Part shown: positions 41,260 to 46,990 of the stretch, in pieces
Position numbering within the stretch: position 1 is the stretch's first letter
How the letters are laid out: the number at the start of each line of letters is the position of its first letter
NCBI RefSeq assembly: GCF_028776105.2
Contig: NZ_CP145606.1
Location: 1,984,001 to 2,048,000 of the forward strand
Length of the DNA: 64,000 nt
Reading direction: 5' to 3'
Origin: Neisseria leonii
Lineage (GTDB): Bacteria > Pseudomonadota > Gammaproteobacteria > Burkholderiales > Neisseriaceae
The notes under the pieces: generated by a model
Seen by the model: only the letters and a program-made list of their open reading frames with translations
Databases searched by the model: none
What the model was told of the DNA's origin: nothing
Position numbers and translations under genes: made by a program

Positions 41260-42166
41260 TTATGTCCGTTCATTTATCCCTCTATAAAAAAGACTGACAT
41301 AAGAACCTAACAAAATCAAAAAAATACCGATACCGGAAAATAAATTGAAATGATATTCTTGCATAACACTGGAAATCATAATAGCAACTATAGGGAACAA
41401 ACTTGTTGCTATTGCAGCCTTATCTGCACCAGACTCTTTAATGAGATTTAAATATAAAATAAATACAACTGCTGTACAAAAAATCGACAAATATAAAAGT
41501 GACAAAATATACTCAACGCTCATAATCACTGTAAAATCATAACCAAAATATAAGACCATGATAGCAGAAATAATCCCGCCATAGATAAGCCCCCACGACG
41601 TAGATGATACAACATCAATACCCTGCTTACTCATATGAGAGGACATGATATTACCTATTGATACTAAATAAGTTGCAATTACAGTGTATAGAACACCTTT
41701 CCATATGCTATTAATCTGTTGATAACTAAACAAATCATTGTAGAACAAAAGAAAAGTGCCTAAAATCCCTAGGAATCCACCAATCAGTACTTTTTTTCAA
41801 CGCTTATATTAAAAAAATATACTGATTTATAGAATTAAAAATAATAAGAGTAGAGAAAATAATTGCAACTAATCCACTGCTAATATATTCAGTTGCTAAA
41901 TAAAAAAATAAATAATTAATCGAAAACAAACATCCACCTAAGACGCTTACCTTTAGATGATTTTTAATAGATGCTATCTTGATATTGGTGCAATAAAAAA
42001 GATTTTTATAAATTAGTAGAAATATAGCGGCTATTACTATCCGATAAAAAACCGAAACTAATACCGGTGTCCCGTTTAATTGAAATGTAATCGTATACCA
42101 AACTGTCCCCCATAGTAATATAGTGAAAAACAACAGTGCTAATCTTTTTGATGCCGACAACATCAT
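41260..42166 (-). pseudogene. EamA/DMT-family transporter, frameshifted in two homopolymers, AT-rich
   Basis: From ATG 42166 the frame encodes the start of a drug/metabolite transporter (LALLFFTILLWGTVWYTITF and further helices) to QYIFLI then TAA at 41804. The remaining helices continue in another frame from 41797 to 41260 (KVLIGGFLGILGTFLLFYND through LLGSYVSLFY). Joining them needs one extra base in the run at 41811-41817 (seven A on the plus strand) and one in the run at 41791-41797 (seven T); the bridge FNISVEKKVLIGG is then natural. About ten helices would result, normal for EamA exporters. Base composition is far more AT-rich than any neighbour. It is either a pseudogene, a switching gene, or a homopolymer sequencing error. 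Confidence 0.8.
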
Positions 42167-42306: not shown

Positions 42307-42475
42307 ATTTATTTGCGGTTGCTGCCTGAAACCATGTCCAACAGAAACAGGCGGCAATTCAAGTTGCCGTTGTATAAGGGGATTTTGCGTTTCGGTTTCA
42401 GGCGCATCAGCTTGGGCAGATCCATATCGTCGGAAAATAGGGCAGCCGTCCGTCTGGCATAGTGTAGCAGCGCAG

Positions 42476-42562
42476 GTCAGATTCTCGAATCCGCCATTTT
42501 TGTGAATCCGGTATTCGGGTTGGGCGTTCTGTCGGATACCGGTATCCGACCTACGTTCAGGC
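42476..42562. repeat. Composite palindromic repeat, copy 1
   Basis: A degenerate GTCAGATTCTCGAATCCG palindrome is followed by a spacer with GTGAATCCGGTATTCGGG and then GTCGGATACCGGTATCCGAC. A second single palindrome, GCCGGATACCGGTATCCGGC, lies at 42618-42637. Confidence 0.75.
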
Positions 42563-42655
42563 GGCCCGAATGGCACAAAGGCCGTCTGAATCGGGAACGG
42601 TAATACGCAGCCGGTGAGCCGGATACCGGTATCCGGCCTGCCCGTATTGCGGCGC

Positions 42656-43081
42656 TTACTGTTTCATCAATAAGCGGGCAATCACATTGTCTATTTGCTG
42701 CTGCACGTTGTCTGACGGGTCGGGACGGTAACGCAGGCTGGCAACCGGATGGTCGGGCGTGCGGATCAATACGGACATCTGGGTCAGGGATTGTGCATTG
42801 CCGGCAGTGCTGTAACGCAGGTTGTATCGGCACTCTTTTTCGTAGAGACGCTTGCGTTGTGCCGGCAGGCTGACGGTTTCGCTGTCGATGCCGTTCTGTT
42901 GGAGTGCTTGGGCGATGCGGCTGCTGAGTTCGGGTTGTGCGGCTTTGGGATTGTCGATAATGCAGATATAGCGGATTTCGGACAATTGGCTGCCGCTGGT
43001 GCCCAATTTGGTCTGATTGTTGGCACAGGCGGTCAGACCGGCGGCAGCGGCCAGAAGCAGCAGGGGTTTACGGAACATCAT
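42656..43081 (-). CDS. Small lipoprotein (possibly Sbal_3080-like)
   Basis: A 141-residue protein with a lipoprotein signal: FRKPLLLLAAAAGLTAC, cysteine at residue 19. The mature part has a pattern IRYICIIDNPKAAQ, then IAQALQQNGIDSETV and a cysteine in YEKECRYNLRYSTAG, which loosely resembles the Sbal_3080 lipoprotein family (short alpha/beta domain). The assignment is weak. GGAGAAAAA precedes the tandem ATG codons on the minus strand. It lies isolated among palindromic repeats on both sides. Confidence 0.7.
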   Translation of the reverse strand: MMFRKPLLLLAAAAGLTACANNQTKLGTSGSQLSEIRYICIIDNPKAAQPELSSRIAQALQQNGIDSETVSLPAQRKRLYEKECRYNLRYSTAGNAQSLTQMSVLIRTPDHPVASLRYRPDPSDNVQQQIDNVIARLLMKQ

Positions 43082-43204
43082 TTTTCTCCTGTTTGAGTCA
43101 TCGGGAAAGTACGGTGCCGACTATACCATAAACCGCATTGGCGATGAGCTTGGTCTGAAATCTGAGGTCGGGCGGCAGGCCGGGACGGTGCGGAATACTC
43201 GCAC

Positions 43205-43288
43205 GTAGGTCGGATTCTCGAATCCGACGTTTTTGAAAATCCGGTATTCGGGCGGGATTTTATGTCGGATACGGAGTATCCGACCTAC
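43205..43288. repeat. Composite palindromic repeat, copy 2
   Basis: GTCGGATTCTCGAATCCGAC at its left, spacer with AATCCGGTATTCGGG, then GTCGGATACGGAGTATCCGAC at its right; both outer ends read GTAGG / CCTAC, so the whole unit is itself inverted. Confidence 0.8.
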
Positions 43289-43380
43289 GTTCAGGCCGTA
43301 TGAATCGGGAATGGGGAAAACCGCAGTCAGAGCGGGCATTGGGATTACAGCTTGGCGGCGGCATTGCGCAGGGCAGCAGT

Positions 43381-43460
43381 GTAGGGCGGATTATCGAATC
43401 CGACGTTTTTGTGAATCTGGTACGGGCAGTTTTATGTCGGATACCAGTATCCGACCTACG
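43381..43460. repeat. Composite palindromic repeat, copy 3
   Basis: Same structure as the copy at 43205, with the left palindrome slightly decayed (GGCGGATTATCGAATCCGAC) and the right one GTCGGATACCAGTATCCGAC. A lone GCCGGATTTTCAAATCCGAC follows at 43525-43544. Confidence 0.78.
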
Positions 43461-43695
43461 TTCTGCGTTCAGACGGCCTGAATGGCACAAAGGCCGTCTG
43501 AATCGGGAACGGAAAGCCGTGTAGGCCGGATTTTCAAATCCGACAGCCAATCCAAACAGTCGGGACGGTTATCCGCCCCGACTGTTTTGCAGCCTCGCTG
43601 TGTGTGTTGTAGCCGTGCAGAAATAGTGCGCAGCACTATATTTAGCTTCGCAGAAACGGCGCGGCGCACCGTTTTCAGACGGCCCGGCCGGCGGT

Positions 43696-44791
43696 TTATT
43701 CAAACCGCTTGAACTCGCTCAAACGGTACAGGCCGAAAGCGCGGGCGGTGTTGACATAAGTGTAGCGTGCCCGTTCGTGCTGCTTTTCGGTAGAAGGCAG
43801 GGGGCCGCCGCCGACTCCGTCAACCTGAATCGGGTAACCGGCATAGCGTGCGTAGGCTTCCAGCGAAGCGGCAGCCCGTGCGATGTGCCGGCGTGTGGCG
43901 ACGGCCAGCACTTTGTTCAGGCCGTTTGCTTTCAGGATTTCGACCATGCGGATGACGTTGCCGTGTGTGTCGCGCGCTTGCGGTTCGAGAATGAGGCGGC
44001 TGCGGGCGATACCGTTTTCCGCCAGCCATTTGGCCATGACATCGGCTTCGGCATACGGCGTGCGCACCGGGCCGCCGCTCAGAATCAGTTTGGCATTCGG
44101 ATATTTCCGTGCCATTTCTTTGGCTTTTTCCAAACGGTGCAGCAGGCTTTCAGACGGCGTACCGTCGGGATTGGGCGATTCGCCGAAAACGGCGATGGTA
44201 TCGAATGTAATCGGGCGGGTCGGCTGTGTACTGTAAGGATGGTTAATGGCTTGTTCGGTAAAGGCCAGAAATTCGGCAACGGTTTGTGCCGCCGCAGGCG
44301 AGCGTTTTTGCAGGGCGTTCAGACGGGCGGCCACCTGTTCTTTGTCGTCCAGCGCGGCGGCGGCAACGATGCTGACACCCAGCGCGTGCAGGTCATCGGG
44401 CCGGCGGCGCAGGATTTGATCCAGTTGCGACAGGGCTTCGCGGTATTGCCCGTTGAGCAGGTAGACTTCGGCCTGCATACGGTAGGTGTTGAGATAGTCG
44501 GGGCGGGCTTGGGCTTTGAGGTCGAGACTGCGGTAGAGATCCTGCCACTGCCAGCGGCGGTATTGGATGACTTGTTCGCGCAGATAGGGATCGTTTTCGT
44601 AATCGGGGGAGTAGCGCGGAATCAGGTTTTCAATGGCTCTGCCCCGTCCGTCCGGTGCGTTCATCACGGGTGCGGGCAGCGGTTCGGTGTATGTCGGTGC
44701 GACGGTTTTTGCGGGGGGGGGTAATGGTACTGCATGCTGTCAGTGTGAGCAACAGCGCCGAGCATAGTGCCGGATAGGCGGTTTTCATCAT
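43696..44791 (-). pseudogene. YdcF/DUF218 lipoprotein with TPR-like region, out of frame at a C9 tract (phase-variable candidate)
   Basis: Two tandem ATG codons at 44791 and 44788, preceded by GAGGA, begin a lipoprotein signal peptide MKTAYPALCSALLLTLTAC. Five codons later a run of nine C residues (44713-44721, G on the plus strand) puts the signal out of frame with a long downstream frame. With eight or eleven C the protein would be about 364 residues: signal, APTYTEPLPAP linker, a TPR-like helical region (YRMQAEVYLLNGQYREALSQL near residue 105), then a YdcF domain with IAVFGESPNPDG, LILSGGPVRTPYAEADVMA and RDTHGNVIRMVEIL. YdcF-type domains bind nucleotide or act in envelope chemistry; the role is not settled. 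As read here the lipoprotein is OFF, though an internal GTG/ATG at 44667 could give a cytoplasmic form. Confidence 0.82.
44713..44721. repeat. Homopolymer G9 (C9 on the coding strand) within the ydcF-like lipoprotein
   Basis: Nine identical bases directly after the lipobox region. Poly-C/poly-G tracts of this length are the classic slippage sites for phase variation in neisseriae. Confidence 0.85.
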
Positions 44792-44908
44792 GGTTTTTCC
44801 TCAATATCGGTGGATAGATTGTCTGCCTGCACCCGGCGGGAAGGGTACGGCTGCGCGGAGCAGGCCGACCGGTATCTTAAAGGATGCGCATGACGTGTTT
44901 TTGACAGC

Positions 44909-44953
44909 CTGTTTTCAGACGGCCTTTTCAGGGCTTCGGCCGTCTGAAAACAG
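44909..44953. repeat. Uptake-sequence inverted pair upstream of the ydcF-like gene
   Basis: CTGTTTTCAGACGGCC (44909-44924) pairs perfectly over 16 bp with 44938-44953. Confidence 0.8.
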
Positions 44954-44963
44954 AAGCGGGAAT

Positions 44964-45040
44964 GTAGGTCGGATTCTCGAATCCGACTTTTTGAATCCGG
45001 TATATGCGGGCCGTTTGGTGTCGGGTACGAGTATCCGACC
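44964..45040. repeat. Composite palindromic repeat, copy 4
   Basis: GTCGGATTCTCGAATCCGAC on the left (44968-44987), a shorter spacer with GAATCCGGTATATGCGGG, and GTCGGGTACGAGTATCCGAC on the right. Confidence 0.78.
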
Positions 45041-45093
45041 TGCGTTCGGACGGCCTGAATGACACAAAGGCCGTCTGAAAAGGGAAGCACAGC

Positions 45094-45177
45094 GTAGGTC
45101 TGATTCTCGAATCCGACATTTTTGTGCATTCGGTATTAGGACGGGGTTTCATGTCGGATACGGAGTATCCGACCTAC
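45094..45177. repeat. Composite palindromic repeat, copy 5
   Basis: GTCTGATTCTCGAATCCGAC on the left, spacer with GTGCATTCGGTATTAGGACG, and GTCGGATACGGAGTATCCGAC on the right, followed directly by an uptake sequence at 45182. Confidence 0.78.
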
Positions 45178-45203
45178 GTTTAGGCCGTCTGAATCGGGAA
45201 CGG

Positions 45204-45229
45204 AAAAAGCCCCGCGGTCAGGGCGGGGC
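45204..45229 (-). terminator. Terminator after the lpd-like gene
   Basis: On the minus strand GCCCCGC pairs with GCGGGGC and is followed by five U residues (A run 45204-45208 on the plus strand), 9 bases after the stop codon. Confidence 0.8.
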
Positions 45230-45237
45230 GTTGGGGA

Positions 45238-46647
45238 TTACAGCTTGGCGGCGGCATCGCGCAGGGCGGTACGCAGGCCTTCTTCGATAACGGGGTGGTA
45301 GAAAGGCATATCCAGCATCTGCGGCACGCTCATGTTCATTTGGTGCGCCCATGCGAGCAGGTGGGCCAAGTGTTCGACGGCCGGGCCGACGGCTTCCGCG
45401 CCCAGCAGGCGGCCGTCTGATTTGGCTGCATAGACGCGCAGGCAGCCTTGATTGACCCGCATCACGCGGCTGCGTCCCTGATTGCGGAATGAGACGCTGC
45501 CCGTAACATAACCGCTTGTGCCGTACTGTTTTTCCACTTCGGCAAAACGCAGACCGACGGTGGCGATTTGCGGGTCGGAAAATACAATCGCCAGCGGGCT
45601 GCGGCGCAGGCCTTTTTCGATATGCGGGTAGCGGCCGGCGTTGTCGCCCGCGATTTTGCCCTGATCGGCCGCTTCATGCAGCAGCGGCAGCTGGTCGGAA
45701 GCATCGCCCGCGATAAAGATGTGGGGGATGCCGGTCTGCATGGTGTGCGGGTCGGCTGTCGGTACGCCGCGCGCATCGGTGGCGATATTCAGATTTTCCA
45801 GGCCGATGTTGTCCACATTGGGGCGGCGGCCGGCGGCGGACAGCAGGTAGTCGGCGGCAAACCGGCCGCTGCGGCCGTTTTTGTCTTGCCATTCAATCTG
45901 CACTTTGCCGTTGCTGTCGAGCGAAACGGCGGTTTTGTCCATATCCAGATTGAGATGCAGCGGAAATTCTTCCGCAAATACCGTACGCGCTTCTTCGAGA
46001 ACATCCGGATCGCTCAGGCCGCCGATATTGCCGCTGCGGCCGAATACGGCCGTGCGCACGCCCAGGCGGTGCAGTGCCTGGCCGAGTTCCAAGCCGATGA
46101 CGCCCGTACCGAATACGGCCACGCTTTCGGGCAGGGTGTCCCAGGAAAATACGTCGTCGTTGATAATCAGACGGTCGCCCAAGGCCTGCCATTGCGGCGG
46201 CACGACGGGGCGGGAGCCGGTGGCGATGACGATGCGTTTGGCCGTGATTTCGGTGTGGCCGTCGATGTGCAGGGTATGCGCGTCGATAAAGCAGGCATGT
46301 CCTTTGATGCGCCTGTCTTCCGGCCAGGCCTCCACATCTTCCAAGACAAAACCGACAAAGCGGTCGCGCTCGGCTTTCACGCGCGCCATCACGGCGCGCC
46401 CGTCGGTCTGCACGCTGCTTTTATCGAGACGGATACCGAACGGCTCGACGGCAAGGGCATGATGGCGGGCTTCGGCGGCGGCAATCAGCAGCTTGGACGG
46501 CATACAGCCGACGCGGGCGCAGGTGGTGCCGAAAACATGGCTCTCAATCAGATAAACATTGTCGGTATGGCGGCGGGCGTTGCGGAATGCGCCCATACCG
46601 GCGGTGCCGCCGCCGATAACGGCCACGTCTGCGCGGATTTTTTTCAT
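45238..46647 (-). CDS. Dihydrolipoyl dehydrogenase-like class I pyridine nucleotide-disulphide oxidoreductase
   Basis: A 469-residue flavoprotein. FAD motif VAVIGGGTAGMGAFRNAR lies near residue 8, redox cysteines in TTCARVGCMPSK near residue 43, NAD motif VAVFGTGVIGLELGQALHRLG near residue 169, FAD-binding FIAGDASDQLPLLHEA near residue 303, and the C-terminal PFYHPVIEEGLRTAL carries the active-site histidine-glutamate pair. Unlike the lpdA product it has no lipoyl domain and no E1/E2 neighbours, so its partner is unknown; it belongs to the Lpd3-like group, which also includes soluble transhydrogenase-like and mercuric-reductase-like enzymes. The start at 46647 has AAGGA 6 bases upstream; an ATG 18 bases earlier overlaps an ATGCCGTCTGAA uptake sequence. 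Confidence 0.85.
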   Translation of the reverse strand: MKKIRADVAVIGGGTAGMGAFRNARRHTDNVYLIESHVFGTTCARVGCMPSKLLIAAAEARHHALAVEPFGIRLDKSSVQTDGRAVMARVKAERDRFVGFVLEDVEAWPEDRRIKGHACFIDAHTLHIDGHTEITAKRIVIATGSRPVVPPQWQALGDRLIINDDVFSWDTLPESVAVFGTGVIGLELGQALHRLGVRTAVFGRSGNIGGLSDPDVLEEARTVFAEEFPLHLNLDMDKTAVSLDSNGKVQIEWQDKNGRSGRFAADYLLSAAGRRPNVDNIGLENLNIATDARGVPTADPHTMQTGIPHIFIAGDASDQLPLLHEAADQGKIAGDNAGRYPHIEKGLRRSPLAIVFSDPQIATVGLRFAEVEKQYGTSGYVTGSVSFRNQGRSRVMRVNQGCLRVYAAKSDGRLLGAEAVGPAVEHLAHLLAWAHQMNMSVPQMLDMPFYHPVIEEGLRTALRDAAAKL

Positions 46648-46779
46648 TGCGGTGTCCTTATTCATGCCGTCTGAAAATCAGGCGGGCGGTTTTTTGCGCT
46701 GTCCATTCACTTTTGACGGGTTCTGGCGTTGCGAAAACCCGCTTCGCCCGTTCAGACGGCTTGGGTGGTACGGTAAAAG

Positions 46780-46930
46780 GTAGGTCGGATTCTTGAATCC
46801 GACAGAGTGGTGCGGCGTTGTCGGATACAGGTATCCGACCTACTTGTTGTCTGTTGTGCGGTATCAGGTGTAGGTCGGATTTTTAAATCCGACAGGGTTG
46901 TACGGCAATTTCGGATACGGGTATCCGACC
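46780..46930. repeat. Two adjacent short composite palindromic repeats, copies 6 and 7
   Basis: Left unit: GTCGGATTCTTGAATCCGAC (46784-46803) and GTCGGATACAGGTATCCGAC (46820-46839), only 16 bases apart. Right unit: GTCGGATTTTTAAATCCGAC (46874-46893) and TCGGATACGGGTATCCGA (46911-46928). These lack the long spacer of the copies at 43-45 kb. Confidence 0.8.
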
Positions 46931-46990
46931 TGCCGGTTATGTCGCCCGCTTTCAGACGGCATCAGGCGGTGTATGGCAGGGTGGGAAGCA

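Follow-up and report, generated by a model that had tools for sequence, protein, structure and literature searches.

Two neisserial proteins are among the closest described counterparts of the gene considered here. NalP is a lipidated protein switched by a homopolymer, and in the lipoprotein HpuA a poly-G tract within the open reading frame does the switching; as far as the available accounts go, both work on the principle that we describe below. Lipoproteins with A and G tracts also appear in gonococcal candidate lists in the available text of PMC5320596. The main text, as available, of a phasome survey of commensal and pathogenic Neisseria (PMC5953494) contains neither YdcF, DUF218 nor SanA, and a term search of the available main text of the Neisseria leonii paper (PMC11316581) returned no phase variation, homopolymers or lipoproteins. 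We analysed a stretch of 64,000 nucleotides of N. leonii DNA (contig NZ_CP145606.1, positions 1,984,001 to 2,048,000, hereafter the window), in which a minus-strand gene has a ribosome-binding site, a signal peptide and a lipobox joined out of frame to an intact TPR-DUF218 body by a run of nine C (C9). It is likely that this is a phase-variable lipoprotein gene which changes state by slipped-strand mispairing at the C tract behind its lipobox and which is OFF in this genome.

A C9 tract between lipobox and body

Direct reading of the sequence and its frames bears out the starting observation of an initial annotation of the window, namely that a lipoprotein start stands out of phase with the TPR-DUF218 body over a poly-C tract. 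The frame from the tandem ATG at 44791 begins MMKTAYPALCSALLLTLTACSTITPP, passes through the lipobox LTAC and reaches a stop after 53 residues, and the body frame has 323 open codons from a GTG at 44667, or 347 codons from stop to stop (Table 1). The signal peptide and lipobox, recognised by reading the sequence, are together with the ribosome-binding site the features of a bacterial lipoprotein, and the homopolymer in the 5′ coding region ahead of an intact body frame is that of a simple-repeat phase-variable locus. A DNA uptake core lies inside the gene at 44149.

We propose that replication slippage at the C tract would change the phase in which an unchanging signal peptide is joined to an unchanging body. 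In the ON phase a TPR-DUF218 lipoprotein would be exported and lipidated, with the outer membrane as its most likely destination and the outer face of that membrane as a probable one, and the two other phases would yield a truncated peptide only, which in the phase of this genome would be the 53-residue remnant. The product is probably an outer-envelope lipoprotein, probably at the surface, caught here in its OFF state. Three SlipAM genes of the Slam type score over the cut-off in the genome, none of them in the window.

Three N. leonii strains, 3986T, 51.81 and JF 2415, all from rabbits, have genomes of 2.21, 2.32 and 2.23 Mbp, and in the available text those of 3986T and JF 2415 were assembled by Unicycler from Illumina (2x150) and Nanopore reads together (PMC11316581). 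The best protein match to the body is P0001, a record that belongs to another N. leonii genome ('ElyC/SanA/YdcF family protein [Neisseria leonii]', 98% identity). Entered via its ATG at 44735, the frame in the window runs MQYHYPPPQKPSHRHTPNRCPHP to a stop; P0001 has MQYHYPPPAKTVAPTYTEPLPAPVMNAPDGRG and then continues across the entire body. Because the same eight residues lead into different frames in the two records, the phase of the tract is not the same in the two strains. The two bodies are 98–99% identical, intact and free of stops, and in neither record is the body in phase with the lipoprotein start.

Homopolymers are a classic long-read error, and with Nanopore reads in use the true tract might be of another length and the gene simply ON. 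However, Illumina reads also went into the hybrid assembly, and because P0001 too is out of phase with the lipoprotein start, and in a different phase, two independent errors would be needed; we regard an assembly error as quite unlikely. Both records being OFF for the lipoprotein start, and the gene being known from a single species of its genus, would also fit a dead gene, that is, an acquired lipoprotein frozen OFF in which decay is beginning. Against this, the body is open over its 347 codons and shares 44 invariant columns over 28 sequences, both N. leonii strains included, and the signal and ribosome site are intact. Where the initial annotation had allowed for a tract fixed at nine ahead of a decaying body, the two records differ in phase and both bodies are whole. 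A dead gene is therefore an unlikely explanation.

Two further explanations keep the tract and change what it does. In the first, internal starts (the GTG at 44667, as the initial annotation had suggested, or the ATG at 44735) would lead, in the OFF state of the lipoprotein, to a DUF218 protein in the cytoplasm, a compartment switch with which the annotation of P0001 from ATG 44735 and the predicted cytosolic location of Escherichia coli YdcF would agree. But neither start is preceded by a ribosome site on direct reading (the bases ahead of 44667 are CTGCCCGCACCC), gene callers tend to favour the longest frame, and the family looks exported, with a crude export sign in 47 of 53 relatives. We consider a cytoplasmic form very unlikely. 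In the second, RNA polymerase or the ribosome would slip on C9, as homopolymers of such length can during expression, and produce a low constant amount of full-length protein, a rheostat and not a switch. The frame difference between the strains fits replication slippage, although it is compatible with slippage during expression too, and we give the rheostat a very small chance.

Several points weigh against a phase-variable lipoprotein. An ON allele is present in neither of the two N. leonii records (two genomes). The tract of the second strain is known through its protein record and not as DNA, and the length of the tract in the window is taken from the assembly and not from reads. The window genome is most likely that of 3986T and the P0001 genome that of JF 2415, names that are provisional. 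No sigma-70-like promoter was found in 42600–45400 (shuffles gave a mean of 1.1). Finally, a tract of nine is not rare in dinucleotide shuffles: in 100 of these, made from the window, eight G matched 4.05 times on average, and the observed 2 was reached in 91.

The runs present in the real DNA are distributed differently, and the stronger evidence comes from the scale of the genome. In the window 34 C/G runs have length 5 and 2 have length 6; lengths 7 and 8 are not represented, and C9, the one run of 9, is the sole C/G run of at least 7. Over the whole genome (2,206,085 bases, single contig) we counted 17 C/G runs of exactly 7, 5 of 8 and, once 42 overlapping C9 matches had been collapsed, 19 of at least 9 (seven of 9, six of 10, four of 11, one of 12 and one of 15). 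Extrapolation of the step from 7 to 8 predicts about 2 runs of at least 9, versus the 19 observed. The real genome avoids long runs, and its shoulder of long runs is as expected from maintained contingency loci.

The TPR-DUF218 family, its fold and its anchors

Relatives were collected by protein searches that scored only candidates sharing most words, so the family list is a partial one. It comprises 53 relatives (P0002–P0040 and P0046–P0059), with P0001, from the same species, and P0041–P0045, weak or partial matches, left aside. The closest named relatives outside N. leonii among the matches scored are the Rodentibacter lipoproteins P0002 and P0004, 62–63% identical over 98%, in which LSGC and LTGC lipoboxes are followed by the same body. 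Since these orthologues have a lipobox and then the same body, the N. leonii signal and body belong together. In the comparison of tracts among homologues that the initial annotation called for, the phase differs in P0001, the Rodentibacter orthologues have no C tract, and C/G runs in nine Pasteurellaceae loci reach 5 or 6 at most.

Export signs among the 53 relatives come from crude tests of sequence pattern and of hydrophobicity, with P0046 assigned by hand on its Pfam result. A strict-pattern lipobox was found in 8, an N-terminal hydrophobic signal only in 21, an LPXTG-like sorting signal in 11, a C-terminal transmembrane tail in 6, an autotransporter barrel in 1 and no sign in 6, two of which are short pieces. 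Four of the 21 with a signal only (P0020, P0035, P0036 and P0037) have a Cys that the lipobox pattern overlooked. The barrel belongs to P0046 of Mannheimia haemolytica, a protein of 715 residues with Autotransporter (PF03797) at 63.7 bits and DUF218 at 56.5 bits, and the streptococcal P0055 matches a Gram-positive anchor model at 25.9 versus a cut-off of 20. The same module on unrelated anchors suggests that it works at the cell surface. Tentatively, and with somewhat less than even confidence, we propose that TPR-DUF218 proteins are an undescribed class of surface-displayed envelope enzymes on whichever anchor the bacterium has (lipid in Rodentibacter and N. leonii, sortase signals in streptococci, a beta-barrel in M. 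haemolytica), made into a contingency locus in N. leonii and exposed in part of the population. If so, the protein would be seen by, or act on, the host or other microbes, and with a branch both displayed by unrelated anchors and phase-variable in one species, there would be DUF218 proteins whose place of action is the outer surface or beyond it and which a cell does well to hide at times.

In Mannheimia the TPR-DUF218 passenger with its beta-barrel (locus L044, positions 463–2610) adjoins a second exported copy (L043), and in the metagenomic P0010, compared with P0046, the frame is lost near an A-rich stretch so that the barrel is missing, through error or variation. Literature searches, which mostly did not extend to subscription journals, found no paper on Mannheimia, autotransporters and DUF218 that mentions M. 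haemolytica. A BglG-type antiterminator stands beside the gene in Pasteurellaceae (L035, L038, L039, L041 and L042; P0060–P0063), and the other named relatives of this antiterminator are from Firmicutes. DUF218 and BglG-type relatives share equal longest contigs (51743, 9041 and 7977), which suggests that the pair occurs together elsewhere too. The Rodentibacter BglG-type partner was not found in 46 genus genomes by a search that had no positive control.

The body matches Pfam DUF218 (PF02698) at 71.8 bits versus a cut-off of 27.6, and TPR models of Pfam match below their cut-offs only. A structure model (mean pLDDT 95.8) has a TPR part and a YdcF fold. The top Foldseek matches were SPINDLY and OGT at TM ~0.4 and a second comparison gave YdcF; a sequence search of the PDB returned TPR matches in SRP72 only. 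SanA requires T125, H149 and E182, the putative Thr-His-Glu triad of SanA/ElyC, in the available text of PMC12176290. In the alignment SanA T125 and H149 pair with T234 and H261 of the N. leonii body and E182 with T303, a Glu being a few residues off. H261 is not universal, being Gln in the outlying P0033, P0034, P0036 and P0038.

Two identities were tried and rejected: that of ElyC, for which the NCBIfam equivalog NF007794 gave 23.7 bits versus a cut-off of 205, and that of the cytosolic E. coli YdcF, given the signal peptide and lipobox here and relatives that look exported. Judged by its sequence, the protein belongs to a separate exported TPR-DUF218 family. The label of YdcF-domain protein in the initial annotation is right as to domain and fold but not as to YdcF itself. 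By analogy, the body is probably an enzyme of the SanA/ElyC/YdcF fold that acts in the envelope or at the surface and docks through its TPR part. SanA and ElyC have lately been linked to the balance of peptidoglycan and surface glycans in E. coli, and from these two we would guess that the N. leonii protein acts on envelope or surface glycans or on their lipid carriers.

Origin, surroundings and other tracts

Several lines of evidence are consistent with horizontal acquisition of the gene, followed by gain of the tract in the N. leonii lineage. No full-length relative was found in 45 other genomes of the genus, 43 of which match the DUF218 part only, at no more than 31% identity, and 2 of which give no match. 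At 1e-15 one of 83 genomes of the family matches, N. leonii itself; with P0004 as query and a threshold of 1e-30, two of 369 genomes of the class match, N. leonii included, as do 8 of 140 genomes in the family to which the other matching genome belongs. A scan of genome contigs added one distant Oscillospiraceae locus, at 38%. A plasmid origin was considered and rejected (among 72,556 plasmid records 32 gave a match, and in none of them did a single place cover 80% of the query). In a tree the N. leonii sequence, on a long branch, groups with Rodentibacter and two unnamed sequences, and Mannheimia belongs to the same wider clade (support 100/99 and 100/96). Because this branch is long and the G+C content is 59.8% in N. 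leonii versus 42.3% in Rodentibacter, a recent direct transfer from Rodentibacter is unlikely.

The neighbourhood was compared in 30 loci, our own and those of 29 relatives, out of 46 matches. A prx–oxidoreductase pair is together in 29 of 29 relatives; the lipoprotein gene and a small lipoprotein gene adjoining it are in none of the flanks of these relatives (up to 1.5 kb). Direct repeats flank the N. leonii gene, and a 71-base query from the repeat returned, besides its own position, the left copy (89% over part) and, at another place in the genome, a weak match of 34 bases. From its sequence, the arrangement looks like insertion of the gene with a partial target duplication. Deletion of nalP often occurs via recombination between flanking repeats, in the available text of PMC3723659, and by analogy the same repeat-driven deletion could take place here. 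Many inverted repeats of the GTAGGTCGGATTCTCGAATCCGAC type lie between genes in 42472–46938, some of them close to DNA uptake sequences, and an EamA-type transporter in an AT-rich stretch (41263–42166 of the window) is broken into two frames.

The 19 C/G runs of at least 9 form a candidate phasome of the N. leonii genome (loci L045–L079). Of the 18 other tracts, 8 had adjoining pieces compared with Pfam, which found the two halves of a type I specificity subunit, GT90, two GT2 pieces, a DSBA protein, two SBP_bac_5 proteins with the tract near a lipobox and part of a gamma-glutamyltranspeptidase; a YadA-type stalk scored 27.6 bits, below its cut-off of 28.4. The frame that holds C15 is transporter-like. 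Several other tracts lie in stretches without long frames. A candidate phasome is now available for this rabbit Neisseria and can be tested by counting tracts.

Table 1 Features of the lipoprotein locus and its surroundings, with two tracts elsewhere in the genome (window positions unless marked as genome contig)
Feature	Position	Strand	Remark
Ribosome-binding site GAGGA	44798-44802	-	6 bases ahead of tandem ATG; direct reading
Start (tandem ATG from 44791), signal peptide, lipobox LTAC	44722-44791	-	lipobox Cys codon 44732-44734
C9 tract (nine G on + strand)	44713-44721	-	starts in fourth codon past lipobox Cys
TPR-DUF218 body frame	43696-44712	-	open down to stop at 43696
Internal GTG, candidate start	44665-44667	-	no ribosome site ahead; direct reading
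TPR part	44242-44592	-	~residues 26-142 of 323-residue body counted from 44667
DUF218/YdcF-fold domain	43735-44202	-	residues 156-311
T234; H261	43966-43968; 43885-43887	-	aligned to SanA T125; H149
Flanking direct repeat, left copy	43201-43377	+	relic of neighbour gene's tail within 43341-43374, 97% over 34 bases
Flanking direct repeat, right copy	45090-45271	+	takes in last ~30 bases of neighbour gene
Terminator-like hairpin	45209-45229		between oxidoreductase gene and lipoprotein gene
Pyridine nucleotide-disulphide oxidoreductase	45238-46665	-	conserved neighbour
C10 tract	621035 (genome contig)		between two halves of type I specificity subunit
C15 tract	131455-131469 (genome contig)		directly past first codons of a frame

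Comparison with known systems

The systems closest in mechanism differ in what they switch. NalP is an autotransporter of the serine-protease type with a barrel of its own, whereas the N. leonii protein has a TPR-DUF218 body and no barrel. HpuA is a haemoglobin-haptoglobin receptor partnered with HpuB and, unlike the N. leonii protein, is not known to have a DUF218 domain.

Those closest in protein differ in how they are anchored or controlled. Rodentibacter P0002 and P0004 share lipobox and body but not the tract, and a BglG-type antiterminator and a porin gene adjoin their loci (Porin_4 was searched in one locus, L038). M. haemolytica P0046 has the same module behind a signal peptide, but its anchor is a beta-barrel and not lipid. 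SanA and ElyC have a DUF218 domain, which faces the periplasm, and T and H of the SanA triad align with the N. leonii protein, but they have a predicted inner-membrane anchor and, in the alignment, no TPR part. We know of no phase variation in SanA or ElyC.

A phase-variable YdcF protein was not found in the literature covered by the searches described above, in agreement with the statement of the initial annotation that no phase-variable YdcF lipoprotein had been described; phase-variable lipoproteins as such are known (HpuA, NalP and the gonococcal candidates). The switch is of a known kind, and its cargo is new within the literature searched.
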